Part shown: piece after piece, positions 27,058 through 64,000 of the stretch
Position numbering within the stretch: position 1 is the stretch's first letter
Layout of the letters: each line of letters starts with the position of its first letter
Origin: Agelas oroides
Taxonomy: Eukaryota > Porifera > Demospongiae > Agelasida > Agelasidae
Direction: 5' to 3'
DNA length: 64,000 bases
NCBI GenBank assembly: GCA_949130485.1
Contig: OX422185.1
Span: forward strand, 711,501-775,500
The notes under the pieces: model-generated
Told to the model about the DNA's origin: nothing
Database searches by the model: none
What the model saw: the letters and a program-made list of their open reading frames with translations, nothing else
Position numbers and translations under genes: made by a program

Positions 27058-27505
27058 CTAATCAGATAGCCGCCCATGTAAAGGCCAGCGCTTCCTTTTC
27101 AATCTGGGCATATCTCTGTTCGTGGGTGTCATCGACCGGGAGATATAGGCGACAGGTTTCAGCTCACCGGATTGTTGTTTCTGGAGAAGCACCGCACCCA
27201 AACCATAGGAAGAGGCATCTCCTGACACCACCGTATCAAGATTTGGGTCGAACGGTGCTAGTGCTGGGCTGCTAGTGAGAGCCTCTTTGATCCTGAGTGA
27301 AGGCTTTCTGTTGGGGTTCACCCTACATCCATTGGTTCCCCTTAACCAAGAGTTCTCTGAGAGGCTGCGTCATCTCTGCAAGATTTGGGGAGAACTTGCT
27401 AAGTTGGTTAGCCATGCCTAGAAAACGGCGTACATTTCCCACATTAACTGGTGTCTGCACCTTTTGGATTGCCACAACCTTGTCCGTGTCTGGTTTAATC
27501 CCCAT
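27058..27505 (-). pseudogene. Gypsy RT thumb and RNase H fragments
   Basis: 27,505-27,323 reads GNVRRFLGMANQLSKFSPNL (RT thumb/connection). After a stop and shift, 27,321-27,058 reads VVSGDASSYGLGAVLLQKQQ, the RNase H first-strand motif with catalytic Asp. Further 5', HFTQSRGNFLGHIIDAMGI continues to 27,563 before the junction with the non-LTR element. Confidence 0.8.
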
Positions 27506-27562
27506 GGCATCAATTATATGACCCAGGAAATTACCTCTGCTCTGTGTGAAGTGACATTTCTC

Positions 27563-28267
27563 ATGACTGTGTTTGCGCTATTTTCGTTGCTGCATTTTCT
27601 CTACTCTATCCTCTTGTTGGACATTCCACCAGTGTATGCAAGCCTCTATAGTGACAGTCTACCAACGCTGGTTGGTTTGGTTCCCTATGGTTGGTACCCA
27701 CAGACTCGGAGTACCGGATGGCTGCCGATACACTCTCGTACCTATCCACAAACGACTCTACTGGTCCTCTTACTATTAGCCTGTGGTGACATTGAGAAAA
27801 ACCCTGGTCCCATGGACCCCTGCTTGGTCTGTGACAAGCGTGTGCTGGACAACCAGGATGGACTTTTTTGTGAGGTGTGCCTTAATTGGGTACACAGGCA
27901 TTGTGTTAAAATGTCGGAGAGCGAATACTACCACTGGGCCAACATTGAAGATGGTTGGATCTGTCCAAAATGTGAAAAGGAATCCTTCCCATACCATGAT
28001 GTCTCTACTCTATCCTCAGATACACACTGTGACTACCTGAGCAGTGGCACTGACTCCTCAGTATCTCAATGCTCAATTTTCCATTGTAATAACCCCTCTT
28101 CTGGCCTGAAATTACTATCCACCAATGTCAGGAGCCTACTACCAAAAATCGATTACCTTCGAGGTCTTTGCTGCCATGAACACTTTGACATCATTGTAGC
28201 CTCTGAAACTTGGCTCTCAAATGCCATCTTGGACTCCGAAGTCCATATTCATGGATACAACCTATAA
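27563..28267 (+). pseudogene. Non-LTR ORF: leader, 2A peptide, PHD finger, endonuclease start
   Basis: From ATG 27,563 (MTVFALFSLLHFLYSILLLD) the N-terminus is hydrophobic. LLVLLLLACGDIEKNPGP (2A) follows, then at once MDPCLVCDKRVLDNQDGLFC and C-x-x-C/H spacing ending WICPKCEKE, a PHD-type zinc finger. The endonuclease begins LLSTNVRSLLPKIDYLRGLC and IIVASETWLS. The frame stops at 28,267 and resumes in another (28,262 onward), one frameshift. 2A would separate the leader from the PHD-endonuclease protein. Confidence 0.85.
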
Positions 28268-29340
28268 GGAAGGATCGAAATCGGCATGGAGGTGGTGTTG
28301 CTATCTATGTTTCTTCCTCCATCCCCTTCAAACAGCTCCAACTCCCGCACAGTGATCTGGAACTTTTAATAGTTGAGTGTACTCTTGGCCATCAGCTTTT
28401 CACAATAGGTGGATTCTGTCGTCCCCCAGGTGCTAGTGCGGTGGTTATGGATAATCTACATAGTGTTATCTCTCTACTCAGGCCTCAAAATTTTGCAAAT
28501 CTTGTCCTTCTTGGTGATTTTAACATCGATCCCAATACTTTGCCTTCTCCCCAACTAAGTGACTCCTTCAACCACTTATTGACTGACTTTTGTCTCAGTC
28601 AGGTTGTAAGTGAGCCAACAAGGACCTCGGGAAGGTCATCATCTACTATTGACCTTGCTGTTGTTTCAAATATGAACTCTTTTCTTTCTTGTGAGGTCCT
28701 TGCACCCTTGGCAAATTCTGACCACAAGACTGTAGTGCTAACCCTTTCTTCCCCATCCAATCACAAGCATTTCCCCCAGCCTAGGAAAACTGTCTGGATT
28801 TACAAGAGGGCTGACATTCAACTGGCTAAATGTCTCCTGAGGGATTTGCCTATGGCCTCTACCTCCGGCAGTATTGACATCTTCTGGAAGAAATGGTCTA
28901 AATCCTTTCTGGCAGCCATCAGGAAATCCATTCCATCCAAGCTGGTACCAATCAAATCAAGCAACCCAGGACATCGCGAAGCGTGAACTGTTTTACAAGC
29001 GCTATAAGAAAAGCAACTCCCAAGACTGGCTCAATAAATTCAAAACCTTGAGAAACAAAATTGTAACCAACATCCGTGATGCCAAGAAACACTTCTTCAT
29101 TCGACTTTCTACATGTAGAAGTGATCCTAAGAAGTTCTGGCCCATTATAAAATCTGTCAAACCTTGTACCAGTCTACCATGTTCCCTATCCAACGGCCAA
29201 GTTACTGTTTCCTCTGACACTGATAAAAGCAGGCTTGCTCAATGAGTTCTTCACATCTTGTTTCAATCCAGCCATACAACCACCTTCCTACTCTGAGCTT
29301 CCCCAGTGTGCAGAGGGTGATGCAGCTGATTATGACATCA
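28262..29340 (+). pseudogene. Non-LTR endonuclease domain and linker to RT
   Basis: Reads HGGGVAIYVSSSIPFKQLQL, FANLVLLGDFNID (GDFN motif), SSTIDLAVVSN and LANSDHKTVVL (SDH motif). These are the hallmark residues of APE-type endonucleases of CR1/L2/Jockey-like elements. After a shift at about 28,975 the linker region reads FKTLRNKIVTNIRDAKKHFF. The frame then breaks again before LNEFFTSCFN and fades. At least three frameshifts make it inactive. Confidence 0.85.
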
Positions 29341-29371
29341 CCCATACGGTATTCCAAAAACAGTGCACATG

Positions 29372-29380
29372 CTCATACAC
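29372..29380. repeat. 9-bp target duplication (left)
   Basis: ctcatacac immediately left of the CAGAGGAGG terminus. The same 9 bp follows the right terminus at 33,780-33,788. Confidence 0.85.
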
Positions 29381-29437
29381 CAGAGGAGGTTGGAAGCTAG
29401 TAATTAGCGACGCGCGCGATCAAGCAAAGGTAGCAAT

Positions 29438-29807
29438 TAGTGCTACGTGAATGACGTAATCATACGAGCTGCCATTGAGGCCCATAGTGAAAGGTGAAAT
29501 CGATTTACACAAACAGCTCTCGTTTGTTTGGGACGAAACTTGCTCAGTGGATACTGCCAGGTGAGCTCTAGATCGACAGTTATGGCATTTTATGGCGCGC
29601 AAAATCTTCCGCGGGGATTCCCAAGGAAACACTCAAATACTTCGCGTATCAGGAAGAGCTATAGCGGTTGATCTAGAGCTCACCTGGCAGGATCTACTGA
29701 GTGAGTTTCGTCCCAAACAAACGAGAGCTGTTTGTGTAAATCGATTTCACCTTTCACTATGGGCCTCAATGGCAGCTCGTATGATTACGTCATTCACGTA
29801 GCACTAT
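29438..29807. mobile_element. Foldback MITE inside the transposon's left inverted repeat
   Basis: tagtgctacgtgaatgacgt ... acgtcattcacgtagcacta: arms of about 150 bp are complementary to each other (also gtttgtttgggacgaaac against gtttcgtcccaaacaaac), with a short loop near 29,580-29,650. It splits the left terminal repeat exactly between ggtagc and tggccgatttgcac, which are contiguous in the right terminal repeat. AAT flanks both sides, a probable 3-bp target duplication. Confidence 0.85.
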
Positions 29808-30205
29808 AATGGCCGATTTGCACTATAGGGTCACGTGATATGGCTGGGGGTCAGCTGTCCGCGATTGTCTATTGAAAATGTATGGAGAGTGACGACCTTT
29901 ACTCATTAACTGCCTTGTAGCTCGTGTTCAGAGAGACGGATTGCGTAGATGTTTCTCGTTGTATTTGCTAAGTGTCAAGCCATCACAGCAATCTGACGAT
30001 CGGATGGCTGGGCGAAAGGAGAGAGGTGCAAGCTCCGGAGTGATACCTTCTGGCGTGTACGTGAACAGGTGAGTTGCATGTGTGTTTATAATACTTTTAC
30101 GTGTATGGCGGGCTAAAAAAAAGTCAGTGCCAGCTGTTATGAGGGCTTTCCAGCTGAGTTTAATACTTCAACGGTTGTGCAGTGATATAGTTAGTGTTTA
30201 CCGAG

Positions 30206-31546
30206 ATGGTGCATGTGTGCGCTGTAACTGAATGTCACAGTAGGTCAGATAGAGAGAAGCACTTGGCGTTTTTTCGACTACCCTTGTCGAATAAGCCACT
30301 ACTGGCCAAATGGGTTGCTAACATTGGAAGGAAGGATTTACCAGGGAATGCCAACACAAGGATTTGTAGCCTGCACTTTAAGAAGGGGAAAGACAAGTCT
30401 CGTACCGACATTCCTACCTTGGAGCTTGGCAGAAAACCAGTCTATGATGAACCATCAGAAAGAAAGCACCCCAAAAGTCGCACTATTGCACCGACTAAGC
30501 AACGACTCCCTAAGCATACCTCGGTAACAGTTGGCACTGACTTGGTTTGGGAATCAAGAATATCGGAGTTAACAGCTAAAGTGGATGAGCTGGAAGGGAA
30601 ACTGGCTAGTGCAAGGGCACATACACTTGAGATTGACAATGTACTGAAAGATGATAGTAAAGTACAATTTTATACTGGTTTCCCTTCTAAAGAGCATCTG
30701 CAGATATGCTTTGAATTTCTTGGGCCTGCTGTAAACCACCTTCAGTATTGGAAAGCAAACAATACTAAAAAATCCCAAAGAAAGAAGTGTGGACGCCAAA
30801 GAAAGCTGTCCCCATTGGAAGAGTTTTTTTTGACTTTATGTAGACTACGTTTGGGGCTGTTTGAAGAGGATTTGGCTGATAGGTTCGGAATACATGTATC
30901 TACTGTTTCACGCATATTTATCACCTGGGTGAATTTTTTATACCAGAAGTTCAAACAAATCCCCCTTTGGCCGTCGCGATCTCAAATTCAGCAACATATG
31001 CCATACTGTTTTCGTAAGAAGTATCCTACCACACGAACAATAGTAGATGCTACAGAGATTCGAGTTGTCCAATCATCTGACCCTGTAGAGCAACAGCAAA
31101 CATTTTCACACTACAAAAATACCAATACTTTTAAAGCCTTGGTGGGAATAACTCCCTCAGGTGCTGTTAGTTTTGTGTCCTCATTATACTCTGGCAATAT
31201 ATCAGACAAGGAACTGTTTGCACAGTCAGGAATACTTAGACTACTTGAGAGAGGAGACTGTGTTATGGCAGACAGGGGCTTTGATGTGCATGATCTACTG
31301 AAGTCTGTTGGAGTTGAGCTAAATATCCCTCCTTACCTTAGTGGTCGGCCACAATTGGATGAGCATGAGTTGGTAGAGACTAGGAGGATTGCTTCATTGC
31401 GAATCCATGTTGAAAGAGCCATTGAACGTATTAAGAACTACCATTTTTTTGATAGACCTGTCCCTTCAACCCTTGTTTCTATAATTGACCAGGCATTTTT
31501 TGTTTGTGCCGTACTTACAAATTTTTACCCACCTCTAGTGCTTTAA
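30206..31546 (+). CDS. THAP-domain DDE_4-type transposase
   Basis: 446 codons from ATG 30,206 (an upstream in-frame GTG is not used). The THAP zinc finger is at residues 1-75: VHVCAVTECHSR, KWVANIGRK, then RICSLHFKKG (C2CH). A coiled segment follows (SELTAKVDELEGKLA), then a helix-turn-helix (LADRFGIHVSTVSRIF). The catalytic core has IVDATEIRV (D), MADRGFDVHDLL (D) and HVERAIERIKNYHFF (E). The frame is intact from start to stop, so the gene could still be active. It cuts and pastes DNA in the nucleus and probably recognises the CAGAGGAGG ends. Confidence 0.9.
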   Translation: MVHVCAVTECHSRSDREKHLAFFRLPLSNKPLLAKWVANIGRKDLPGNANTRICSLHFKKGKDKSRTDIPTLELGRKPVYDEPSERKHPKSRTIAPTKQRLPKHTSVTVGTDLVWESRISELTAKVDELEGKLASARAHTLEIDNVLKDDSKVQFYTGFPSKEHLQICFEFLGPAVNHLQYWKANNTKKSQRKKCGRQRKLSPLEEFFLTLCRLRLGLFEEDLADRFGIHVSTVSRIFITWVNFLYQKFKQIPLWPSRSQIQQHMPYCFRKKYPTTRTIVDATEIRVVQSSDPVEQQQTFSHYKNTNTFKALVGITPSGAVSFVSSLYSGNISDKELFAQSGILRLLERGDCVMADRGFDVHDLLKSVGVELNIPPYLSGRPQLDEHELVETRRIASLRIHVERAIERIKNYHFFDRPVPSTLVSIIDQAFFVCAVLTNFYPPLVL

Positions 31547-43429: not shown

Positions 43430-43810
43430 TTACAGTTCATCTTTGACAGTGGTAGAGTAGTCTATGTGTTGCATGTGAGCAATGTTGTTAGCAAGTCTAG
43501 CATTATAGAAAGGATAGTCAGCTAAAACCTTCACTACTTGCTCCCAGCAGGCTCTCCCTGTGTCTAGGTATGCCTCCAGGCACCTCCTTTTCTTTATTGT
43601 ACTGTCTGTGTCTATCATGTTACGAAGTCCATTGATAACAGCTTTCTCTACCCCTAGGTTTTCACAGAGGGTTTCCCAGTTTCCAATCTCTGCCACTGCC
43701 TTTCCATTGCAAGTTCTTGCTTGTTTGAGATACTGTGGCAGCCCTCTGCAGCTAGAGGAATAAAAGTATAGGAGAATGTCATTCGTGGTGGCCAAACCCA
43801 GTTTAGCCAT
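43430..43810 (-). CDS. Small Death-fold protein or terminal exon, ends KDEL
   Basis: 126 codons from ATG 43,810 (TGC ATG GCT). It resembles a Death-like domain: IGNWETLCENLGVEKAVING, then CLEAYLDTGRACWEQVVKVL, then YNARLANNIAHMQHID. The W-xx-L, CLxAYL and LAxxIAxxH positions align with the Death exon at 13.4 kb. The last four residues are literally KDEL, which in a secreted protein would be an ER-retrieval signal but is probably fortuitous in a cytosolic Death protein. There is an in-frame stop 5' of the ATG, so it is either a one-exon gene or an exon with a missed acceptor. Confidence 0.6.
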   Translation of the reverse strand: MAKLGLATTNDILLYFYSSSCRGLPQYLKQARTCNGKAVAEIGNWETLCENLGVEKAVINGLRNMIDTDSTIKKRRCLEAYLDTGRACWEQVVKVLADYPFYNARLANNIAHMQHIDYSTTVKDEL

Positions 43811-43839
43811 GCATTTAGGTCATTGGAAACTGGCAAGTA

Positions 43840-44332: not shown

Positions 44333-44900
44333 TTAATTAGGAAAAACGGCCTGGCAACTTAACCAAGTTCAAACTGTTGACTTCCGCTGCCCTGGGGTTG
44401 GCAGTACCAATCAGATTTCAGAACGCTTCATGTGATAGAATTTCAATTGCGTCATAAATACATCATAGTATACCGTACCGTACCGTGGTATACTAGCACT
44501 TGGAACGACGGTTTTGTTCGAACTCCTTCTACTGACTTGTTTGTAACTACTACAGTACCTGCGGACAACACGGTTTCTTTACAAGCAAGGACCTGTTCGA
44601 GAGTAGCAGTATGATACTAGTTAGTACTGTACTTACTGTTAGTCGGGCAGTGAGCGAGAGCGAGTCTACTGCAAGCGGTGCATCTACAGATATAAGTAAG
44701 ACAGCGATCATCCAATATAAGCCTATAACGAGTCTTGCTGGCAACAACACGCTTGCACATTACGAACAGTCATGTGGCTTCAAATATCACATGCATTATC
44801 CAATATTCATGGCTTGTACGGGTGCAGCTGTAATCTTTTTGACGTCATATCCGTATACAGTTTGAACCCGGGTAAGTTGCCAGGCCGTTTTTCCTAATTA
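44333..44900. mobile_element. MITE-like element with ~45-bp inverted ends
   Basis: Left ttaattaggaaaaacggcct plus ggcaactta; right taagttgccaggccgttttt plus cctaatta. Just inside, gttcaaactgt faces acagtttgaac. About 570 bp and no transposase; short ORFs inside are not credible. The left flank carries the agcctcgtacccaggcc word. Confidence 0.7.
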
Positions 44901-44998
44901 GGTAATGCGTTGTGTACACTGAGTACACACGAATGTCTACACTAAGTGTGTGGCAGTGTAAAAATTGTTCTAAGGGTAATAGGCAGTTTGCAACATAC

Positions 44999-45175
44999 TT
45001 AGACAGGTAGGTTCACTCCCAGACCACACTCCTGTAGGTTGACATGTGCGAATACTGTCTCCCAACAGGTTGTAGCCGGTATTACAGCTGTAGGTAGCTG
45101 TCCGTCCGAATGCTGTTCCAGCAGTGTGACTAACTTGACCATTGGCTGGATTAGTTAGAGCACCACAGTCCACAA
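44999..45175 (-). CDS. CCP/sushi domain exon 2
   Basis: A 177-nt exon, phase 1 to 1 (ttttgacag acceptor, CTAA|gtatgt donor). Reads VDCGALTNPANGQVSH, TATYSCNTGYNLLGDS, RTCQPTGVWSGSEPTC: all four CCP cysteines, the G-Y and the C-terminal W-x(4)-P-x-C are present. CCP modules are extracellular binding units that depend on two disulfides. Same size as the exon at 45,284. What follows 3' was not identified. Confidence 0.9.
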
Positions 45176-45283
45176 CTGTCAAAATGAGGAACACAACATG
45201 TACTTGTAATGTGCACGTGTGAAAAGTAGGTCATTTATTAAACAAACAGCTTTGCCCACTCTGCATACAAGGCAATAACATAC

Positions 45284-45460
45284 GTAGGCAGGTAGGTTCA
45301 CTCCCAGACCACATTCCCGTAGGTTGACATGTGCGAATACTGTCTCCTATCAGGTTGTAGCCTGTGTTACAGCTATAGGTGGCTGTCCGTCCGAATGCTG
45401 TTCCAGTAGGGTGACTAACTCGGCCATTGGCTGGGCCGGACAGAGCACCACAGTCCACAA
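45284..45460 (-). CDS. CCP/sushi domain exon 1
   Basis: A 177-nt exon, phase 1 to 1 (ttttgacag acceptor, CTAC|gtatgt donor), reading VDCGALSGPANGRVSH through GMWSGSEPTCL. About 90 percent identical to the next CCP exon, including the flanking intron, so the pair arose by a recent tandem duplication. It splices in phase from the transmembrane exon at 46,181. Confidence 0.9.
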
Positions 45461-45629
45461 CTGTCAAAATGAGGAATAGATGTAACACACAACTTAAGTT
45501 CAAAACCTCATCCGCATACACAAAGAAATGTGACCACAACTAAATCATCTAGTACCAGATTCCTTGGTGAACATTATAACAAGTGCACTCCATATTCATG
45601 ACCGTATTTTTAGGTATCTGTCTGTCTGT

Positions 45630-45695
45630 CTGAGTATTAACTAATGGTAGCCATTGGCTGTGTTAGCCAACACTACATACAACTGTCAAAATAAC
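45630..45695 (-). pseudogene. Relic of a third CCP exon
   Basis: The minus strand shows cgttattttgacagttgtat followed by gtgttggctaacacagccaatgg, clearly related to the starts of the two CCP exons but with a stop and indels. It lies between the TM exon and CCP exon 1, where another repeat would be expected. Confidence 0.6.
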
Positions 45696-45719
45696 GTGTT
45701 ACAAGATGCAAGGGAAAGG

Positions 45720-45850
45720 CACTGGTTGTTAAGTGCAGCTCTTTATTAAGCGCATGATTTATTAAGTGCAGCTCTTTATTAAGCGCATAATTTATTGAGG
45801 GTTTTACCCATCACATGTTAGCACATGCGCTTAATAAATGAACTTTGAAC
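45720..45850. repeat. Direct and inverted short repeats in intron
   Basis: attaagtgcagctctttatt plus aagcgcat occurs twice (about 45,730 and 45,764), and an inverted piece, atgcgcttaataaat, follows at about 45,826, so the region can form a hairpin. Lies within the intron between the TM and CCP exons. Confidence 0.7.
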
Positions 45851-46180
45851 TTTAAGTGAACGTGTCGAGCAAAACATGTCAAGTAGTACGAAGAATGAAG
45901 AGAATGGCTGAACTAGCGCTCGGCAGTAGCTTCGTCAGGAAGCGAAAAGCTACACAAGAGAAGAGAAACTTAACCAACACTTACGGTATATTAAGCCACA
46001 CTCGGGTGTCAAGTCAAGTGCATGTGTTGTACTTCAGGTACATCTGGTAGTCCATTTTTGGGAGGCATGTTCGTAATGTATAAGAAGGAAGGGAGGGTGT
46101 GGTATGTTGAATGCAGAGCCATATGGTGCTGAAGCTTTAGTCTTAGTTCAACATGTGTCATTTCTAAAGTCATGACTTAC

Positions 46181-46261
46181 ATAAAGTGCCGAATAGTGCC
46201 AACACCACAGCAGTGATGAGGAAGCCACAGATTTTGAGTAGCTTCCAATGGCATCTCTCAT
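46181..46261 (-). CDS. Transmembrane exon
   Basis: An 81-nt exon (tttctacag acceptor, TTAT|gtaagt donor), phase 1 to 1. In the phase dictated by the preceding Ig exon it reads ERCHWKLLKICGFLITAVVL and ALFGTL: a basic flank followed by 17-18 hydrophobic residues, a good membrane anchor. Basic residues lie on the N-terminal side, favouring a cytosolic N-terminus (positive-inside rule), i.e. type II topology with the CCP exons outside. Confidence 0.75.
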
Positions 46262-46392
46262 CTGTAGAAAGAACACAGTGGTGATCAATGATTGCAAACT
46301 TTATTCCTTACAGGAAGTATATCCACCAAACTAACTTATTATTCCATGACTAAATTAAGAATACACACATTGTTAAATCAGATGAAACTCAC

Positions 46393-46668
46393 ACACAGTA
46401 AGCTGAGCCTCCTCTGAAATTTCTCCATCTTCTTTCACCTCATTCTTCACTACACATTTGTAGCGACCAGCATCACTCTTGTTCACTTGTTGAATTGTCA
46501 GTGTGTGGGTGGCAGCTCCATTGTGTCTACTGTCATTACACACATTACTGCCATTCTTCTGCCACTGATATGTAAGATTATCTCCTTCAGCTTTAATAGA
46601 AAATGTTGCTTCTTCTCCAGTGGGTATTTGCTGGTTTTCAGGGTGCTTGGTGATCTTGGGGGGATCAA
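46393..46668 (-). CDS. Ig-like exon 6 (repeat e)
   Basis: A 276-nt exon, phase 1 to 1 (cccctcag acceptor, gtgagt donor), 92 codons. It encodes an I-set-like domain with the central Trp (YQWQKNGSNV), the D-A-G-x-Y-K-C F-strand and the N-E-V turn. The B-strand Cys is replaced (ATFSIKA). It is the last of five near-identical tandem copies and joins the TM exon in phase. Confidence 0.85.
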
Positions 46669-46737
46669 CTGAGGGGAAAGAGGGCAGTATTTATAAGCAC
46701 CAAAAATGCAAATGTTGACAAATCTGATGAAACTCAC

Positions 46738-47013
46738 ACACAGTAAGCTGAGCCTCCTCTGAAACTCCACCATCTTCTTTCACCTCATTCTTCACTACAC
46801 ATTTGTAGCGACCAGCATCACTCTTGTTCATTTGTCGAATCGTCAGGCTGTGGGTGGCAGCTCCATTGTGTCTACTGTCATTGGGCACATTACTGCCATT
46901 CTTCTGCCACTGATATGTAAGATTATCTCCACCAGCTTTAATAGAAAATGTTGCTTCTGCTCCAGTTGGTATTTGCTGGTTTTCTGGGTGCTTGGTGATC
47001 TTGGGGGGATCAA
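46738..47013 (-). CDS. Ig-like exon 5 (repeat d)
   Basis: 276 nt with identical borders to its neighbours. Distinguishing features: SNVPNDSRHNGAATHSLTIR instead of CNDSR, and MNKSDAGRYKC. No B-strand Cys. Confidence 0.85.
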
Positions 47014-47092
47014 CTGAGGGGAAAGAGGGCAGTATTTATAAGCACCAAACTGGACTAAGAATGCAAATCTTGACAAATCAGATGAAACTCAC

Positions 47093-47368
47093 ACACAGTA
47101 AGCTGAGCCTCCTGTGAAACTTCTCCATCTTCTTTCACCTCATTCTTCACTACACATTTGTAGCAACCAGCATCACTCTTGTTCACTTGTTGAATCGTCA
47201 GGCTGTGGGTGGCAGCTCCATTGTGTCTACTGTCATTACACACATTACTGCCATTCTTCTGCCACTGATATGTAAGATTATCTCCACCAGCTTTAATAGA
47301 AAATGTTGTTTCTCCTCCAGTGGGTATTTGCTGGTTTTCTGGGTGCTTGGTGATCTTGGGGGGATCAA
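47093..47368 (-). CDS. Ig-like exon 4 (repeat c)
   Basis: 276 nt. Reads GGETTFSIKAGGDNLTYQW, SNVCNDSRHNGAATHSL, VNKSDAGCYKCVVKNEV. It has an extra Cys next to the F-strand (GCYKC), but still none in the B-strand. Confidence 0.85.
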
Positions 47369-47437
47369 CTGAGGGGAAAGAGGGCAGTATTTATAAGCAC
47401 CAAAAATGCAAATGTTGACAAATCTGATGAAACTCAC

Positions 47438-47713
47438 ACACAGAAAGCTGAGCCTCCTCTGAAATTTCCCCATCTTCTTTCACCTCATTCGTCACTACAC
47501 ATTTGTAGCGACCAGCATCACTCTTGTTCACTTGTTGAATCGTCAGGCTGTGGGTGGCAGCTCCATTGTGTCTACTGTCATTGGGCACATTACTGCCATT
47601 CTTCTGCCACTGATATGTAAGATTATCTCCACCAGCTTTAATAGAAAATGTTGCTTCTGCTCCAGTTGGTATTTGCTGGTTTTCTGGGTGCTTGGTGATC
47701 TTGGGGGGATCAA
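47438..47713 (-). CDS. Ig-like exon 3 (repeat b)
   Basis: 276 nt, differing from repeat d by a few substitutions only (VVTNEV for VVKNEV; QLSV for QLTV). The flanking introns are also near-identical, so gene conversion or very recent duplication is likely. Confidence 0.85.
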
Positions 47714-47782
47714 CTGAGGGGAAAGAGGGCAGTATTTATAAGCACCAAAAATGCAAATGTTGACAAATCTGATGAAACTTAC

Positions 47783-48058
47783 CCACAGTAAGCTGAGCCT
47801 CCTCTGAAACTTCTCCATCTTCTTTCACCTCATTCTTCACTACACATTTGTAGCAACCAGCATCACTCTTGTTCACTTGTTGAATCGTCAGTGTGTGGGT
47901 GGCAGCTCCAATGTGTCTACTGTCATTGCACACATTACTGCCATTCTTCTGCCACTGATATGTAAGATTATCTCCACCAGCTTTAATAGAAAATGTTGTT
48001 TCTCCTCCAGTGGGTATTTGCTGGTTTTCTGGGTGCTTGGTGATCTTGGGGGGATCAA
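47783..48058 (-). CDS. Ig-like exon 2 (repeat a)
   Basis: 276 nt, the first of the five-copy array. Reads DPPKITKHPENQQIP, ETTFSIKAGGDNLTYQWQ, HIGAATHTLTIQQV. Acceptor tttcccctcag, donor GTGG|gtaagt. It joins the more diverged first Ig exon in phase 1. Confidence 0.85.
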
Positions 48059-48254
48059 CTGAGGGGAAAGGGATCAATTAACGGAGACAAAGTAAAAACA
48101 ACACAGTACGCACTTGCAAATGTTGCATCTTTCTTACACTTGTACTATACGTACACTGTTTGCTTTTGTACCACACATGAGGATATTGAATGGAGCTTAG
48201 CTAACTAATGATACTATGAGGAGCATAATCATGTTATGGTTATGAACAACTTAC

Positions 48255-48516
48255 TGACAGTAAGAACAGCCTCATTTGAATGCTTTCCCTCTATGTAATT
48301 CTTCACATGGCACCTGTAGCGACCTTTGTGAGTCTTCTCTGCATCTAAGATACGTAAAGTGTGAGTGTTAGTGCCACGATATCCATCACGATCAGTGATG
48401 TCAACGCATTCCTTCTGCCATTGGAACTGAAGCTTATCTCCCGTCGCTTCAACCTTAAACACTGCTTCTGCTTCAGAAGGCACTAACTCTTCTTCTGGAT
48501 GTGACTGAATAGTTGG
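48255..48516 (-). CDS. Ig-like exon 1, diverged
   Basis: 262 nt, phase 0 in and phase 1 out (ccactag acceptor, CTGTCA|gtaagt donor). Reads PTIQSHPEEELVPSEAEAVF, LQFQWQKECVDI, KGRYRCHVKNY. An Ig I-set-like fold with the Trp and F-strand Cys but no B-strand Cys. Its phase-0 start matches the phase-0 end of the ROC-COR exon, which links the GTPase to the Ig array in one reading frame. Confidence 0.85.
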
Positions 48517-48647
48517 CTAGTGGAAAGGAAACAATCTGATGTATACAGTAGATTTATGTCACCAGAGTATCCCTAATAATCACAATTCTTAACATTAGAC
48601 AAAAATGGGATGTGCACATTTTTGTCAGCATACAATTGTCTACTCAC

Positions 48648-50830
48648 CTCTGGAAGCCATGCATACCAGCATAGACTTGGCTCCACTTTCTCAAGAGAAT
48701 GATTACACTGGAAGGAATGGACTTTTAATAAGTGTTCAAACTTTAGAACCGGTTGTAGCACAACTGGGTGACATTTCTTGCATTCATTGCACCAGCCTTC
48801 AAATGAAAGAAAGTAGTCTTTATGCGCTTTCAGCGAGTAATGTAACGTCTTACATGCTCTGTCAATATTTTCAAAAATCAGTTTGCGAACACCATTACAG
48901 AGGACTGACAGGGTTGACAGAGGTACATTTGGGTGGCAAGGGATAATTTCAATGTAGACATGGGTGGCTCTGACTCTCAAACGAAGAGTACCCTCATTCA
49001 TTTTGAAACAGATTTGATCTCGGAAGATTTTTGATTTATCTAAATCAAGTGTAGAATTCACCACTTGTTTGTTTGCAATACAAGCTACAAGTGATCCAAA
49101 CAGCCCTTTAGGGCAGTAGCCACACTTGAATGTTATCAGCAGAGGAGGGATGGCACCTGATTGTGTGGAATCACTGGAACTGGCTTCTTCAAGGTGAGTA
49201 ATGGCACAAGGCATGAAATACTTTTTCTGGTCACCATTTTTATTTTCACCATCACCAAGTGGTACAATCACATTAAGGTGCTCAAGGAGGTCTAGCAACA
49301 TTGAGGGAGTCAGCTTACTACGAGATCCTTTAGTTAGTCTCACATAATCTGCTCTTGTAAATAAACCCCGATTGAAATATTCAGTACATTGGCCAGAAAG
49401 AGTCTTTTCAAATACGAATGTTCTTTCAACTAATTGATTCACCATGCTAAAAACATACTGTGGGTCTCGGATCACAATTGCATTGAGATCAGATGGTTCG
49501 GTGTAATAATGAAGCACTCCAGTTTGCTTGTGAAGAAACTGGAGAGCTGCTTCAAACTCAGTTGGAGATTTGATGCCACATTCACGGGCAACCTCGAAAC
49601 AATCATGCTTGCTGATGACACTATCTTTTGCAAACTCATGCTGCATTAGTGTGCTAAAAATTAGCCATGGAGCAGGAGTGTGGACCTTAAAATCATCAGA
49701 AATTATTTGTAAAGCATCACGTATCTTTTTTGCATCTTTGTCAGATTCATCATCAGAGGCATTGTTTATAGTAAACACCATCTGTGTTTCAGAGGCATCC
49801 AATATCATACCCTTACTGTAAGCATCTGTTTTTTTGACCAGTTCTTTAACATCGTATATTTTTGCCTGACATTCCTCCTGTGAGACTTTGTCTTTGAAAG
49901 TGGCAACAAGCATCACCCTTGGTTTGATTTTGTTTCCATCTTCATCCTTGTACTCAGTAAAAGCAATGCTTCCAAGAGATCGCAACAGATCTTCTTCTAC
50001 AGTGAGACTGGAAAGATATTTTCGCATGCACTTCTGTTCATCTGGTCTCACATACTCTACTTCATATCTGCTCTGTAGATCTTTATCAAGGGGAAAGACT
50101 ATGAAGAAAACACAAGGGCCTACTACTAGTGCTGATAAGAGCTCTTGAAACTCAGGTTGGCCCCCCGAGTCAGTTAGGTAGAGGGTCCGTTTGTTATCTA
50201 CATGTTCTTTCAATCCAGAAACACCCTTTTCCTTCAAAACCTTTCGAAAGAAATCCATGCTCATATTGTACTGGTGAGTTTGAGAATCAGTGCTGAGTTC
50301 AGATGAATTCCCTCCTTCTGCAGGCGAGTAGATCTCAGGGCTATCACTTCGTATTTGTTTGGATACTTGTTCTTTCTTGTTGCTCCCCACGGAATCATTT
50401 CCTTGGAATACATTTTCCTGTTGTGCAGATGCTTGTTGTAAAATTGAATCATCTATTCGTTTTGTAGACAATTGCCTCATTAGTCGAGATTTCCGTGAAA
50501 TTGAATTCTTTCTTTTCATCTTCTGTTTTCTAGAGAGCTGCCCAATTAGTCCAGAAGCCTGTGTCTTCGGATCCTCAATTATTTTCCAATCAAAATCTGA
50601 CACTTGAGCAACAGTTGTTGAAACATCCCTGATGATTTCAACTTGTACTGACCTTTCTGCTGCTTGGGTACTAGTGCGTATCTGATTCAACTTCATGCGA
50701 AGTAAGCGTTTTAGTAACGAACTCTTCCCCACTCCAGCTGGTCCCACAAATATACAATGCATAATAGTTTGATCCATTGTTCCAGATTCACGCATTACTT
50801 GCTCACATACGGATAAGTAATGATCGACAT
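48648..50830 (-). CDS. ROC-COR (Roco-type) GTPase exon
   Basis: 2,183-nt exon (tgcag acceptor, CCAGAG|gtgagt donor), 727 codons, starting DVDHYLSVCEQ in phase 1. Counted from the internal Met of MRESGTMDQ: P-loop GPAGVGKSS (18-26), switch II DSGGQPEFQ (209-217), VATFKDKV where NKxD is expected (no Asn), then a COR-like half (FSMVNQLVERTFVFE, LLEHLNVIVPLG, CGYCPKGLFGSLVACI). A basic Ser-rich insert of about 110 residues separates the P-loop from switch II. Roco proteins are GTP-driven dimerising switches. No signal peptide. It ends WYAWLPE and splices in phase into the first Ig exon. Confidence 0.85.
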
Positions 50831-52076: not shown

Positions 52077-53393
52077 CTCAAAGCTATTCTTGGTGTTGTC
52101 AAACATCTGTAAATAGACAGCCACATTGTGATGTCCCTTGGTTTCAGCCAACTGACGAGGTGTTCTGTTATGCACATCTTGTATGTTAGGAGGACACTTC
52201 AGCTCCTCAATAAAGAAGTGAACTACATTTAAGTGGCCATATTTAGCTGCAATGTGGAGGGGGGTGTTCTTCCAATTGTCACTTGGGTTTAGATTGCAGT
52301 GTTTCTCTATGGTGAGAAATTTCACGATATGTAAATGTCCATTGCGTGCAGCAAGATGAAGTGGTGCATTTTTGTATCTATCTAAGCATGATGGGTCACA
52401 CCCTTGTTCATCAATCAAATACTTCATAATGTGCAAATGACCCCCACAGGCAGCATGATGAAGAGGGGCACCATCATACTTGCCTGGAATGTTTGGACTA
52501 CATTTCCGATCAGTGATGAAGAATTTAAGTATTTCCAAGCGGCCATACTGTGTTGCCCAATGGATGGGAGTGGAACCATCACAGTTTCTAGATGTTGGAT
52601 TACAGTACTTTTCCAAGGTAAGAAACTTCACAATCTCTAAATGTCCATTGCGTGCAGCAAGATGAAGTGGTGCATTTTTGTATCTATCTAAGCATGATGG
52701 GTCACACCCTTGTTCATCAATCAAATACTTCATAATGTGCAGATGACCCCCCTCAGCAGCATAATGAAGAAGGGTAGAGCCATACTGGCCTGGAGTGTGT
52801 GGACTGCATTTCATGTCAGTTGCGAAGAATCGAACTATGCCAATGTAGCCATTCAGTGCAGCTAGGTGTAAAGGAGTGTTGTTTTTCTTTGTTGTCAGTG
52901 AAGGCATGAGGTCTTTCATTGGTTTGTACTTCTCAATCTCCTCAGTTAGAAATTTGACAATGTTGAAATGACCGCTTTCACAACTAACGTGTAATGGAGT
53001 CACTCCATCCTCATCTTGACACAGAGGTTCTACCTGCTGCTCAGTAACAAGATACTTGACCACATCAAGGTGAGCATGTTTAGCAGCCACATGAAGTGGT
53101 GTTCTCTCACGTTGACCTAGACATGCAGGGTTACAATTTTTGTCATATACAAAATACTTGAGCACATCTAAACTCCCTCCCTGTGCAGCTGCATGAAGAG
53201 CAGTGTCTCCATATTCGTTTTTCTGAAGTGGGTTTTGGAGCTGTTTATCTACGAGAAACTTGAGAGTCTCTAGATCTCCCATCATGGCAGCAAGATGCAG
53301 TTCAGGTGTACTCTCAGTTCTCTGGTGCCCACTAGATAACTGAAGTGTGCTCTCAAAGTCATCCAATTCCTCCAGTTCTTTAGACAAAGGGTC
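52077..53393 (-). CDS. Ankyrin-repeat exon, intact long copy
   Basis: 1,317 nt, 439 codons, phase 0 to 0 (aatgcag acceptor, TTTGAG|gtaagt donor). After DPLSKELEELDDFESTLQL come about eleven ankyrin repeats, e.g. TPLHVAAKHAHLDVVKYL and APLHLAARNGHLEIVKFLT. A two-repeat block beginning GGHLHIMKYLIDEQGCDPSC is duplicated within it. The Met at the acceptor (ATG in aatgcag) is intronic and is not taken as a start. It could be the N-terminal half of the Roco-Ig protein or part of a separate Death-helical-ANK copy. Confidence 0.8.
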
Positions 53394-62016: not shown

Positions 62017-62715
62017 TTATGGTAACTGCCACACTGCCTTGATCTCAACTTTCCCCAAACTCTGGGGTGTGAAGTCTTGACTGGTCTCAAGTCTCTCAAT
62101 CTCTGTTTCCAATAAAGTCTTGCAGTATGTTGACCATACCTTGAGTGTCTTCAGTGAGGTGTTCTGCAGCAGTCCCCTTGCTATCTCTCTGAGTCCAGCC
62201 TTAGAGATACGACAACCCCCAATACTCAGTTCAGTCAGTGACTTGTTGCATGACAACATCTCAGCCAGTGCTACTGACCCCTCCATCCCCAGTTTATTGC
62301 CACTGACGTCTAAAGTCTTCAGAGATGTGTTGTTACAGAGTGCTTTAAATACATGCATACACCCTTCTTTGGGGATTGATATAGGTGAATGCTTGAATTT
62401 TACTGCACGATCCAATCCAATGTCTAGTTCAGCAAGTAAAGTATTGCGTTCCAGACCAGCTGCAATGCGAGTGGCCACTGCAGTGTCAAGTTTGCAATTA
62501 CGTATATTCAATACTTTGAGTGTTCTGTTCACATTCAGCATTCGCTCAAATGCACAACCTACTGCCTCACCATGTAGGCCAACAGCAGCATGCGCGACTG
62601 CTTGGTCTGTGAGACCTTGTATATCCAACTTTGAGATCTTCATACCACTGTCATTTAGAGCTTCAAAGAATTCCGCACACTTCTCAGGAATTGTGTCACT
62701 TAGAATACACAACAT
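62017..62715 (-). CDS. LRR protein, C-terminal part
   Basis: 232 codons ending AVWQLP. It encodes about seven leucine-rich repeats of the ribonuclease-inhibitor/NLR type (28-29 residues): TLKVLNIRNCKLDTAVATRI, TSLKTLDVSGNKLGMEGSVA, SLTELSIGGCRISKAGLREI, then the tail ETEIERLETSQDFTPQS. It continues the LRR exon upstream through a frame change at about 62,700-62,715 (one or more bases, or an unseen mini-intron). Such LRR arrays act as ligand sensors in NLR receptors; the NACHT part is not in the window. Confidence 0.8.
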   Translation of the reverse strand: MLCILSDTIPEKCAEFFEALNDSGMKISKLDIQGLTDQAVAHAAVGLHGEAVGCAFERMLNVNRTLKVLNIRNCKLDTAVATRIAAGLERNTLLAELDIGLDRAVKFKHSPISIPKEGCMHVFKALCNNTSLKTLDVSGNKLGMEGSVALAEMLSCNKSLTELSIGGCRISKAGLREIARGLLQNTSLKTLKVWSTYCKTLLETEIERLETSQDFTPQSLGKVEIKAVWQLP

Positions 62716-64000
62716 AGTACCTTGGTCTGTCTCACTTTCCCAACTCCCAGGACATGCACCATCTCACCATTTATGCTCAGAGTGGAGTGACCTGTCGTCT
62801 GCTGGAAGAGGAACACAGCACAGGTGCCACTTAATGTCCATGGTTGTATGTTAAGTGCCGTAAGTGATGTGTTCTTGATCAGTCCAGTTAGCATATGCTT
62901 ATCTATGACTTTACAACCACTTAGATTCAACTCTTTGAGTGTTCTGTTCACAGTCAGCATCCTCTCAATTGCACAACCCACTGTCTCACTGTCACCCTCT
63001 CCTAGTTCACTCTTCCATGATAGGTCAAGCTTCTCCAGGCTAGTGTTGTGTTGTAGTGATCTGAAAATGCTAGTGACCACTGTGGTGTCAAGTCCACAAC
63101 CACTTAGATTCAATACTTTGAGTGTTCTGTTCACATTCAGCATCCTCTCAATTGCACAACCCACTGCCTCACTGTCACCCTCTGCTAGTTGACTGTTCTC
63201 TGATAGGTCAAGCTCCTTCAGGCTGGTGTTGTGCTCTAGTGATCTTAATATGCTCACTGCACCAGTGCTGCCAATGTTGTTTGAACGTAAAATCACTTTT
63301 CTCACAGAATGGTTCTGAGCTAGTCCATTAGCAATGTATGCTGCTACTTCACATGTTAATTCACAACCGCTTACATTCAATACTTTGAGTGTTCTGTTCA
63401 TGCTCAGCATCCTCTCAATTGCACAACCCACTGCCTCACTGTCACCCTCTGCTAGTTGACTGTTCCCCGATAGGTCAAGCTCCTTCAGGCTGGTATTGTT
63501 CTTTAGAAATCTGAAAACGTGAACTGCATTGTGACCGTTGATTTTCCCATTCCGACATTGAAATTCGTCTAATGACAGATGTAATGAGTCACCAGAAATC
63601 TGTAGTGTGGACAGGTATCTCATGTTCAGTAAACTGAGGAGATCAACCACACAAGATGCTCCCTCAGGATACTGTAGGCCACAAGCTTTTAACACCTTTG
63701 TATGTTCAAACATTGGTAGTTTAGAAAGTAATGACAGCTTTGTTATCATCTTAGTGTTATAGCTCAAATCCACTTCTTCAATCTGTGTGGTCCCACGGTG
63801 CTGTAAGTTCACTCTGTGCATTATCTCAAGAGATTGGCTTGTGAGTCCAGAGTTACTAAGGTCCAGAGACTTCAGTGAGCAGTCACACCATGCCAAGAAA
63901 TGAGCTAACACCAGGCAGTCAAATGGTGACATGGAATACCATGTGGCAGATAGCTTCGCACCTTTTATTGGACTTGCCAAATCATGAAATAAACTGAAAT
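62700..64000 (-). CDS. LRR protein, N-proximal part, runs off window
   Basis: Open from the window edge (frame reads FSLFHDLASPIKG before the first possible TTG, so the true start is outside) to a stop at 62,700. It begins with a motif common before NLR LRRs (WYSMSPFDCLVLAHFLAWC), then about ten LRRs, several nearly identical (GDSEAVGCAIERML occurs three times, the related GDSETVGCAIERML once, each followed by N-R-T-L-K). A cytosolic receptor LRR domain is likely. It joins the 62,715 part with a frame change. Confidence 0.8.
   Translation of the reverse strand, partial: FSLFHDLASPIKGAKLSATWYSMSPFDCLVLAHFLAWCDCSLKSLDLSNSGLTSQSLEIMHRVNLQHRGTTQIEEVDLSYNTKMITKLSLLSKLPMFEHTKVLKACGLQYPEGASCVVDLLSLLNMRYLSTLQISGDSLHLSLDEFQCRNGKINGHNAVHVFRFLKNNTSLKELDLSGNSQLAEGDSEAVGCAIERMLSMNRTLKVLNVSGCELTCEVAAYIANGLAQNHSVRKVILRSNNIGSTGAVSILRSLEHNTSLKELDLSENSQLAEGDSEAVGCAIERMLNVNRTLKVLNLSGCGLDTTVVTSIFRSLQHNTSLEKLDLSWKSELGEGDSETVGCAIERMLTVNRTLKELNLSGCKVIDKHMLTGLIKNTSLTALNIQPWTLSGTCAVFLFQQTTGHSTLSINGEMVHVLGVGKVRQTKVLCCVF

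Follow-up and report, generated by a model that had tools for sequence, protein, structure and literature searches.

A possible family of splice-switched type II Roco receptors in a sponge, with immunoglobulin, transmembrane and CCP exons between COR and a Death-like exon

The window analysed here, a stretch of 64,000 nucleotides from the sponge Agelas oroides, carries on its minus strand a gene in which a ROC-COR exon is followed by six immunoglobulin (Ig) exons, one transmembrane (TM) exon and two CCP (Sushi) exons. The gene is part of an expanded Roco family of this genome, with 132 COR-A places, 98 of them above the family cut-off, and it may represent an unrecognised kind of surface receptor. 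Our preferred reading is that ankyrin, ROC-COR and Death-like exons form a core into which exchangeable phase-1 Ig, TM and CCP exons are set, and that membrane and soluble forms would arise by splicing; we hold the arguments for and against it to be evenly balanced, because the C-terminal exon of the window is Death-like by eye only. For the same reason the wider proposal, a multi-gene family of type II Roco receptors in which splicing to a TM-CCP cassette or to a Death tail switches between surface and soluble forms, is put forward tentatively, as a possibility falling a little short of even. The exons, in window coordinates, are:

52077..53393, minus strand: ankyrin-repeat exon (Pfam Ank; donor score 11.5; start taken from the sequence)
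48648..50830, minus strand: ROC-COR exon, 727 whole codons, opening in phase 1 and closing in phase 0 (Pfam, phases, structure)
48255..48516, minus strand: Ig1 exon, phase 0 to 1 (Pfam I-set, phases)
47783..48058, minus strand: Ig2 exon, phase 1-1 (phases and splice borders)
47438..47713, minus strand: Ig3 exon, phase 1-1 (phases and splice borders)
47093..47368, minus strand: Ig4 exon, phase 1-1 (phases and splice borders)
46738..47013, minus strand: Ig5 exon, phase 1-1 (phases and splice borders)
46393..46668, minus strand: Ig6 exon, phase 1-1 (Pfam I-set, phases and splice borders)
46181..46261, minus strand: transmembrane exon, 81 nt, phase 1-1, ERCHWKLLKICGFLITAVVLALFGTL (phases, splice-site scan)
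45550..45690, minus strand: degenerate third CCP exon containing stops
45284..45460, minus strand: CCP (Sushi) exon a, phase 1-1 (Pfam Sushi, phases)
44999..45175, minus strand: CCP (Sushi) exon b, phase 1-1 (Pfam Sushi, phases)
43433..43829, minus strand: Death-like exon at the C-terminal end, so named by eye, with its phase-1 acceptor at 43829

The ROC-COR, six Ig, TM and two CCP exons of the window are all open, with intact borders. The first-pass annotation had counted eight exons joining without phase conflict; the phases hold, but the exons number ten (1 + 6 + 1 + 2). ROC-COR indeed ends in phase 0 (48648) and Ig1 begins in phase 0 (48516-48255) across an intron of 131 nt, and a start in phase 0 is likewise suggested for the relatives P0121 and P0139. 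As also annotated, phase 1-1 is common to five Ig exons (Ig2 to Ig6, 276 nt each), the TM exon (81 nt) and both CCP exons (177 nt each); each of them is bordered by AG and GT. The GTPase, however, is not the N-terminus of the protein as had been claimed: the ROC-COR exon begins behind an acceptor, in phase 1, and is therefore internal, and the N-terminus lies further upstream. The exon order from ROC-COR to CCP is supported, but the upstream ankyrin and downstream Death-like exons had been missed.

The domain pair of the window, a ROC GTPase domain followed by COR, is that of a Roco protein. Pfam COR-A scores 41.0 bits (cut-off 35.3) and Pfam Roc 26.6 bits, just below its cut-off of 27. No Roco was among the matches listed when the PDB was searched by sequence with the ROC-COR profile, small GTPases and one YjeQ protein being found instead, and fold comparison was therefore used. 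All 23 PDB fold matches of the predicted model (pLDDT 65.2, pTM 0.67) at E<=0.001 were Roco proteins, with modest TM-scores, and the nearest solved folds were those of Chlorobium Roco, LRRK1/2 and Methanosarcina Roco2. The P-loop residues G29, G34, K35 and S36 and the DSGGQ motif are invariant across 15 aligned ROC-COR sequences, and the 3' part of the exon has dN/dS values of 0.15-0.40 (21 pairs). The exon product is predicted to act as a GTPase switch. In a listing that covers 120 of the 298 ROC-COR homologues, most open frames carry ROC-COR alone, and none of these 120 joins COR and Ig families in a single open frame.

With thresholds set at the acceptor and donor scores of the 81-nt exon, it is the sole TM-like phase 1-1 candidate on either strand of the 64 kb; under looser splice thresholds the rate is 0.007-0.022 exons of this kind per Ig6-CCP gap, a figure that includes the exon itself (approximate splice-site weights). 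Its DNA is found at three places in the genome, each after ROC-COR-Ig, and mutually similar phase 1-1 TM exons are present at six more loci (L014, L021, L022, L029, L036 and L041), those of L029 and L014 showing an 81% DNA match over 59 bases. Hydrophobic frames picked up by a looser scan that required no matching donor, among them frames at L030, at L031 and past the Death-like exon of L014, were not counted as TM exons. On the splice-score scan, the recurrence at three places and the TM exons at other Ig loci, a chance origin of the exon was rejected. The basic residues first noticed ahead of the membrane segment recur, the N-flank being net basic in six of seven independent TM exons.

A basic N-flank and a hydrophobic core would equally describe a signal peptide, and the exon could then be the signal peptide or anchor of a separate CCP-Death gene starting inside the array, leaving ROC-COR-Ig independent and soluble. 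At C4:5106-5116k, at least four CCPs stand before a Death-like exon, and the matches listed include neither Ig nor COR nearby, as a gene of that kind would have it. We nevertheless consider it very unlikely: in the window no in-frame Met lies upstream of the TM segment before a stop, an acceptor directly precedes that segment, and only 131 nt separate it from Ig6; moreover, all TM exons read come after Ig exons, even at the three loci that lack CCP (L014, L021 and L022).

That ROC-COR, Ig, TM and CCP exons form one gene in this order, as first proposed, is supported by the recurrence of the order in the near-identical copies L009 and L010 and in the diverged L029, whose ROC-COR is 56% identical to that of the window. 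Parts of it are found at L036 (Ig-TM-CCP, then a Death-like exon) and L041 (TM-CCP), and C2:19708-19711k shows the order TM-CCP-Death-like. A TM exon was present at 8 of the 15 Ig loci read, 5 of these 8 also having CCP, and the other 7 had neither; once the three near-identical copies are counted as one, the association of TM with CCP reaches only p 0.07. Scans of viral and genome contig collections for relatives returned no locus.

Both CCP exons match Pfam Sushi (48.6 and 46.3 bits) and, in agreement with the first reading, keep their full cysteine set; their donors are weak (scores 3.1 and 4.2). In 16 of 20 defined pairs the CCP dN/dS is 0.22-0.46, and in the remaining four it is 0.58-0.96, on few changes. 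This constraint bears on the suggestion that the protein is a tail-anchored Roco, ended by read-through of the TM exon to a nearby stop, with the CCP exons seldom or never joined. In the window and at L010, L014, L021, L022, L029 and L036, read-through of the TM donor does run into a stop only a few codons on, but the stop is absent in L009, and introns here run into stops early anyway, for example after Ig exons. With the CCP exons constrained and found only after TM exons at the 15 Ig loci, we regard tail anchoring as very improbable.

Pfam I-set scores 40.3 bits on Ig1 and 64.5 bits on Ig6. The first canonical (B-strand) cysteine is present in none of 51 Ig domains and the F-strand cysteine in all 51, a sample that includes many near-identical copies. 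The missing Ig cysteine together with the complete CCP cysteines fits a cytosolic Ig array and an exoplasmic CCP pair; against a cytosolic array, Ig2 to Ig6 bear N-glycosylation sequons, as secreted domains may. The cytosolic Roco-Ig with extracellular CCP that had been envisaged agrees with the hydropathy, the basic TM flank and the cysteine patterns, but in a constitutive protein it would leave a Death-like tail outside the cell.

Downstream of CCP, a Death-like exon is present at every one of the six loci followed (window, L009, L010, L029, L036 and C2), and a candidate phase-1 acceptor precedes the Death-like domain at 7/7 paralogue loci scanned, where other phases also occur. The possibility that the downstream exon is unrelated, a long open frame behind a phase-2 acceptor, was dropped on the evidence of L009, where the exon is open with a phase-1 acceptor. 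The tail exon of L029 is a Pfam Death domain (25.1 bits, cut-off 22.6), and the exon in the same place scores above that cut-off at L028 and just below it at L014. The window-type exon found no match in Pfam, NCBIfam or PDB sequence searches; its L009 version gave a weak model (pLDDT 50.6) with the FADD death domain as best fold match, which is not significant (E 0.46). The L010 version contains a stop and lies 8.5 kb beyond the last CCP of that copy.

No second TM segment was found between CCP and Death at the four loci tested (4/4), nor in the C4 stretch, and a single transcript of all exons would therefore place the Death-like domain outside. Such a transcript could be constitutive, making a type II protein with CCP and a repurposed or vestigial Death-like domain both outside. 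The constant place of the exon after CCP, with phase-1 acceptors where scanned, is compatible with this, as is the fact that it is broken in two of the three near-identical copies, as if dispensable, while TM and CCP are open in all three. Yet the exon is constrained between L009 and L036 (dN/dS 0.42), and Death-like exons also follow COR at loci lacking TM or CCP, where a cytosolic placement would result. We judge a constitutive transcript quite unlikely. Given a single TM between ROC-COR and Death, alternative splicing appears the likeliest reading, one form being membrane-bound with CCP and the other soluble with Death. The idea of a sushi sensor coupled to a GTPase thus keeps its one-gene order but not its simplicity: because a constitutive type II protein would put the Death-like domain outside, it needs alternative splicing or some other resolution.

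In the splice-switched arrangement that we prefer, six Ig exons, one TM and two CCP exons would be the exchangeable phase-1 set between COR and Death. Transcripts with TM and CCP would encode a membrane protein of type II whose two CCPs face outward while ankyrin, ROC-COR and the Ig rod stay cytosolic; transcripts skipping TM and CCP would encode a soluble ROC-COR-Ig-Death protein. Possibly, the CCPs bind a ligand or cluster and thereby alter the dimer and nucleotide state of ROC-COR, and the signal may leave via N-terminal partners or Death-bearing forms.

The ankyrin exon is probably an upstream part of the same gene. It closes in phase 0, mismatching the phase-1 acceptor of ROC-COR; no convincing linker exon between the two was found in the window, where 51487-51427 is a weak candidate, and no ankyrin match lies within about 4.6 kb upstream of L009 and L029. 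In the relative P0112, on the other hand, a single open frame spans Ank, Death and COR. At 12697-11663, a domain with no Pfam or NCBIfam match lies between Death and Ank; its counterpart upstream of the Ank of the window gene contains an in-frame stop. Because of this stop, and because an insertion of 5 nt compared with L009 puts the Death-like exon out of frame, so that it stops after 57 aa, the window copy may be a duplicate in decay that yields no functional protein, regardless of its intact relatives. The Ank-ROC phase conflict and the degenerate third CCP point the same way. The open exons with intact borders from ROC-COR to the second CCP argue against decay, as does a ROC-COR dN/dS of 0.15 to L009, from 11 changes, and we think decay unlikely.

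Sponge TRADD-N and Death-like families have undergone lineage-specific expansion and have ankyrin repeats and variable C-termini (eLife 2021, PMC8195603). Their defining feature is a Death-like unit with TRADD-N after it; in the sponge studied here, a domain that lacks a family match lies in the matching position upstream of Ank. Section 10 of that paper names neither ROC-COR nor TM nor CCP for these proteins. Brown algal LRR-ROC-COR genes, proposed immune receptors, show exon shuffling and tandem repeat exons (PMC11378527), but their repeats are LRR exons, and the word "immunoglobulin" does not occur in the text of that paper. No membrane Roco, or Roco with Ig or Sushi, in sponges was mentioned among the titles and abstract openings listed in the literature searched (most subscription journals lying outside the search).

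LRRK2, the Parkinson's protein, carries the same kind of GTPase switch. It acts from the cytosol, as do LRRK1 and DAPK1, and how outside signals reach these proteins is an open question. To our knowledge, Roco proteins are soluble or peripheral, and we know of no earlier case of a membrane receptor that incorporates a Roco GTPase. If our reading is true, one TM-CCP cassette deciding between a surface and a Death-tailed form would be a natural experiment on outside signals reaching a Roco protein. It would also illustrate a way in which immune or allorecognition sensors may have been put together in an early animal lineage, by phase-1 exon shuffling. The sponge gene shares the ROC-COR tandem with LRRK1/2 and with bacterial and archaeal Roco; unlike these, it adds Ig, TM, CCP and Death-like exons after ROC-COR, and no kinase was seen in the exons examined. 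DAPK1 has the order kinase-Ank-ROC-COR-Death. The sponge loci resemble it in the ankyrin exon upstream, with its putative junction, and in the Death-like exon downstream of COR, but in the sponge Ig, TM and CCP exons are inserted between COR and Death. The Ig of the MALT1 type is cytosolic, in a Death-linked signalling protein, as the sponge Ig, if cytosolic, would be; the sponge Ig, however, forms a tandem array beside ROC-COR and lacks the first canonical cysteine in 51/51 domains.

The exons of the Roco-type gene were joined by script. Their borders and phases agreed with those proposed in the first-pass annotation, which had described an eight-exon type II membrane protein, but the joined exons number ten:

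50830-48648, minus strand, ROC-COR exon, ending in phase 0
48516-48255, minus strand, Ig1 exon, phase 0 to 1
Ig2-Ig6 exons, minus strand, 276 nt each, phase 1-1
46261-46181, minus strand, TM exon of 81 nt, phase 1-1
two CCP exons, minus strand, 177 nt each, phase 1-1

Pfam placed COR-A above its cut-off, Roc just below, and I-set and Sushi well above. With average splice-site weights, acceptors scored 6.5-9.5 from ROC-COR onward and donors from 3.1 (CCPa) to 11.5 (ROC-COR). No other exon in the 64 kb is TM-like and phase 1-1 at the splice scores of the TM exon; with looser thresholds the rate is 0.007-0.022 such exons per gap of equal length, the TM exon included. Ig2-Ig6 are mutually very recent copies (pN/pS 0.68).

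The window spans G000:C3:711501-775500 of a 259-Mb assembly in which the COR-A family occupies 132 places, 98 of them above cut-off; the loci read are a minority of these. We read 10 kb around each of 20 COR places on the window's contig, C3 (on the minus strand all 16 besides that of the window, on the plus strand 4 of 12); an Ig query matched downstream of COR at seven and found no match at 13. A whole-genome search with Ig1, in which 150 of 277 candidates were scored, gave further COR-Ig neighbours. Four plus three further COR-Ig loci were read, picked for Ig near COR prior to any CCP search result, and L036, L040 and L041 were picked later for CCP or Death-like matches there.

The order ROC-COR, Ig, TM, CCP, assigned to one gene in the first-pass annotation, recurs at L009, L010 and the diverged L029. 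L009 and L010 are recent copies on the window's contig, about 130 and 190 kb off, with ROC-COR 98-99% identical; their Ig number differs from the window's, and they have one and two CCPs, respectively. Simple duplication alone could account for their shared order. L029 is a stronger test, because its ROC-COR is only 56% identical to the window's and yet the order is kept: within 4.5 kb come four Ig exons, then TM, then CCP (68%), then a domain that Pfam identifies as Death. At L036, Ig, TM and CCP (74%) are followed by a Death-like exon that shares 65% identity with the L009 one; a diverged ROC-COR (32%) lying about 6 kb before the Ig array there may or may not be part of the same gene. Contig C2 has a CCP exon with a TM exon about 1.1 kb before it and a Death-like exon after it; Ig exons are found about 12 kb upstream. 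L014 and L022 have ROC-COR, Ig, TM and Death-like exons without CCP, and L021 has eight Ig exons and a TM exon. Phase 1-1 is common to the TM exons, and a tryptophan near the start is found in all except L021; the diverged ones end in an aromatic belt, and that of L029 matches that of L014 at the DNA level. Searching the genome with the TM exon of the window gave three places, each after ROC-COR-Ig. We consider it very probable that the ROC-COR, Ig, TM and CCP exons belong to one gene.

Among 15 Ig loci read (window, L009, L010, L014, L021, L022, L027/L036 and L028-L035), eight have a TM exon; CCP was present at five of these eight and at none of the seven without TM (one-sided Fisher, 0.019; 0.07 with three near-identical copies counted once, 3/6 versus 0/7). 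The scan for TM at the TM-less loci covered 1.3-3.7 kb at six and just 230 bases at L033. CCP exons are common in the genome (887 first-look candidates, 150 scored), scattered across the 259 Mb on both strands. The gene's CCPs have a relative in Halichondria (protein P0173). CCP dN/dS was 0.22-0.46 in 16 of 20 defined pairs and 0.58, 0.62, 0.64 and 0.96 in the other four.

In favor of the proposed type II topology, the N-flank of the TM exon is net basic in six of seven independent cases (L029 is the exception), the C-flank is neutral or acidic in all seven, and the CCPs of the window, L009 and L010 retain four cysteines, with an added fifth in CCPb of L010. The Ig domains, many near-identical, have the F-strand cysteine in 51/51 and the B-strand cysteine in 0/51, so on the ROC-COR side the Ig domains lack the canonical disulphide; the cysteine pattern is what a reducing N-side and an oxidising C-side would give. 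The several N-glycosylation sequons in each of the window's Ig2-Ig6 count against this; 30 of the 51 Ig domains have none. On balance, we lean towards a predicted type II protein with CCP outside.

The first-pass annotation missed a Death-like exon downstream and an ankyrin exon upstream. The former lies downstream of the CCPs at all six CCP loci followed (window, L009, L010, L029, L036 and C2). It is open at L009, frame-shifted in the window by a 5-nt insertion, and at L010 has one stop and lies 8.5 kb away. The window's copy of the gene may itself be partly decayed. The kind found at L009, the window and L036, putatively Death-like and so named by eye, had no match in Pfam, NCBIfam or a PDB sequence search, and the best fold match of a weak model (pLDDT 50.6) was the FADD death domain, at a non-significant E of 0.46. 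Between L009 and L036 its dN/dS is 0.42. In the same position, Pfam detected Death at L029 and L028, fell just below cut-off at L014 and gave no match at L032.

Phase-1 acceptor candidates precede the Death-like exon at 7/7 paralogue loci scanned; therefore, Ig, TM and CCP could each splice in frame to Death. No second TM was found between CCP and Death at the four loci searched, so that a transcript of all exons would put one TM between ROC-COR and Death. COR-Death loci without TM occur in the same genome, and for this reason the cytosolic Death tail is probably ancestral. This in turn leads us to favor alternative splicing, in which the TM-CCP cassette would be spliced against the Death tail. 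We give such a splice switch slightly less than even weight, down from even, because the Death name of the window's exon is unconfirmed. The CCPb-Death gap of the window holds, by eye, a MITE-like element with inverted ends (44345-44905). At L040 (G000:C4:5106317-5116210, minus strand), at least four CCP exons precede a Death-like exon that shares 76% identity with its L009 counterpart; among the matches listed, neither Ig nor COR lies nearby, and the stretch read has no TM between CCP and Death. A tandem cluster at G000:C20:6.40-6.71 Mb has 23 COR places, at least 14 with a Death-like exon within 2 kb downstream; no C20 place is among the Ig1-search matches listed.

The upstream ankyrin exon ends in phase 0, a mismatch with the phase-1 start of ROC-COR. 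A weak linker candidate exon (51487-51427) lies between them, with no counterpart among the candidates found at L009 or L010. A related ankyrin exon (65%) is present at L010; none was found within about 4.6 kb upstream at L009 and L029. Similarity between the window and L009 (upstream part, L038) ends 21 bases above the ROC-COR exon, two short matches excepted, as if this exon and the downstream part had moved as a unit. In a second block of the window (13750-8655, minus strand), a Death domain (21.9 bits against a Pfam cut-off of 22.6) is followed by a middle domain and then by an ankyrin exon. This middle domain had no match in Pfam or NCBIfam and is 71% identical to 54904-54605, which holds an in-frame stop.

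The ROC-COR exon has 298 homologous proteins, the best among 120 listed being 97% identical over 68% of the query. Judged from sequence, ROC-COR is a shuffled module, since relatives in one open frame carry NACHT-LRR (P0020, P0045) or Ank-Death (P0112) before it. When the window was aligned with 14 homologues, W-L-P was invariant at the exon end, as expected if the donor is retained, and a V is nearly so. The 3' part has dN/dS of 0.15-0.40 (21 pairs, seven loci). A model built with AlphaFold2 from 53 sequences (mean pLDDT 65.2, pTM 0.67) had 23 structural matches at E<=0.001, all of them LRRK1, LRRK2 or prokaryotic Roco; TM-scores ranged from 0.12 to 0.67 and rmsd from 7 to 11 A.

Shuffling of exons in Roco genes is described for brown algae in an excerpt of PMC11378527, and Roc/COR combined with TIR or Death domains for sea anemones in one of PMC5094078. 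PMC8195603 describes 357 Amphimedon TRADD-N proteins that have Death-like units and C-termini that vary, ankyrin repeats among them; its section 10 mentions neither ROC-COR nor TM nor CCP in these proteins. Among the titles and abstract starts listed from open-access literature, none showed a membrane Roco of this kind; ROC-COR/Ig/TM/CCP would be a new architecture inside a known superfamily.

Several transposon-like open frames were seen by eye between 25.9 and 42.7 kb of the window:

39199-37664, reverse transcriptase frame
27422-29447, endonuclease/RT-like frame
40.3-42.7 and 26-27.4 kb, gag/pol-like frames
30191-31543, THAP/Harbinger-like transposase frame

At 62020-63998 (minus strand), leucine-rich-repeat-like frames, also seen by eye, suggest a possible further NLR-like gene.
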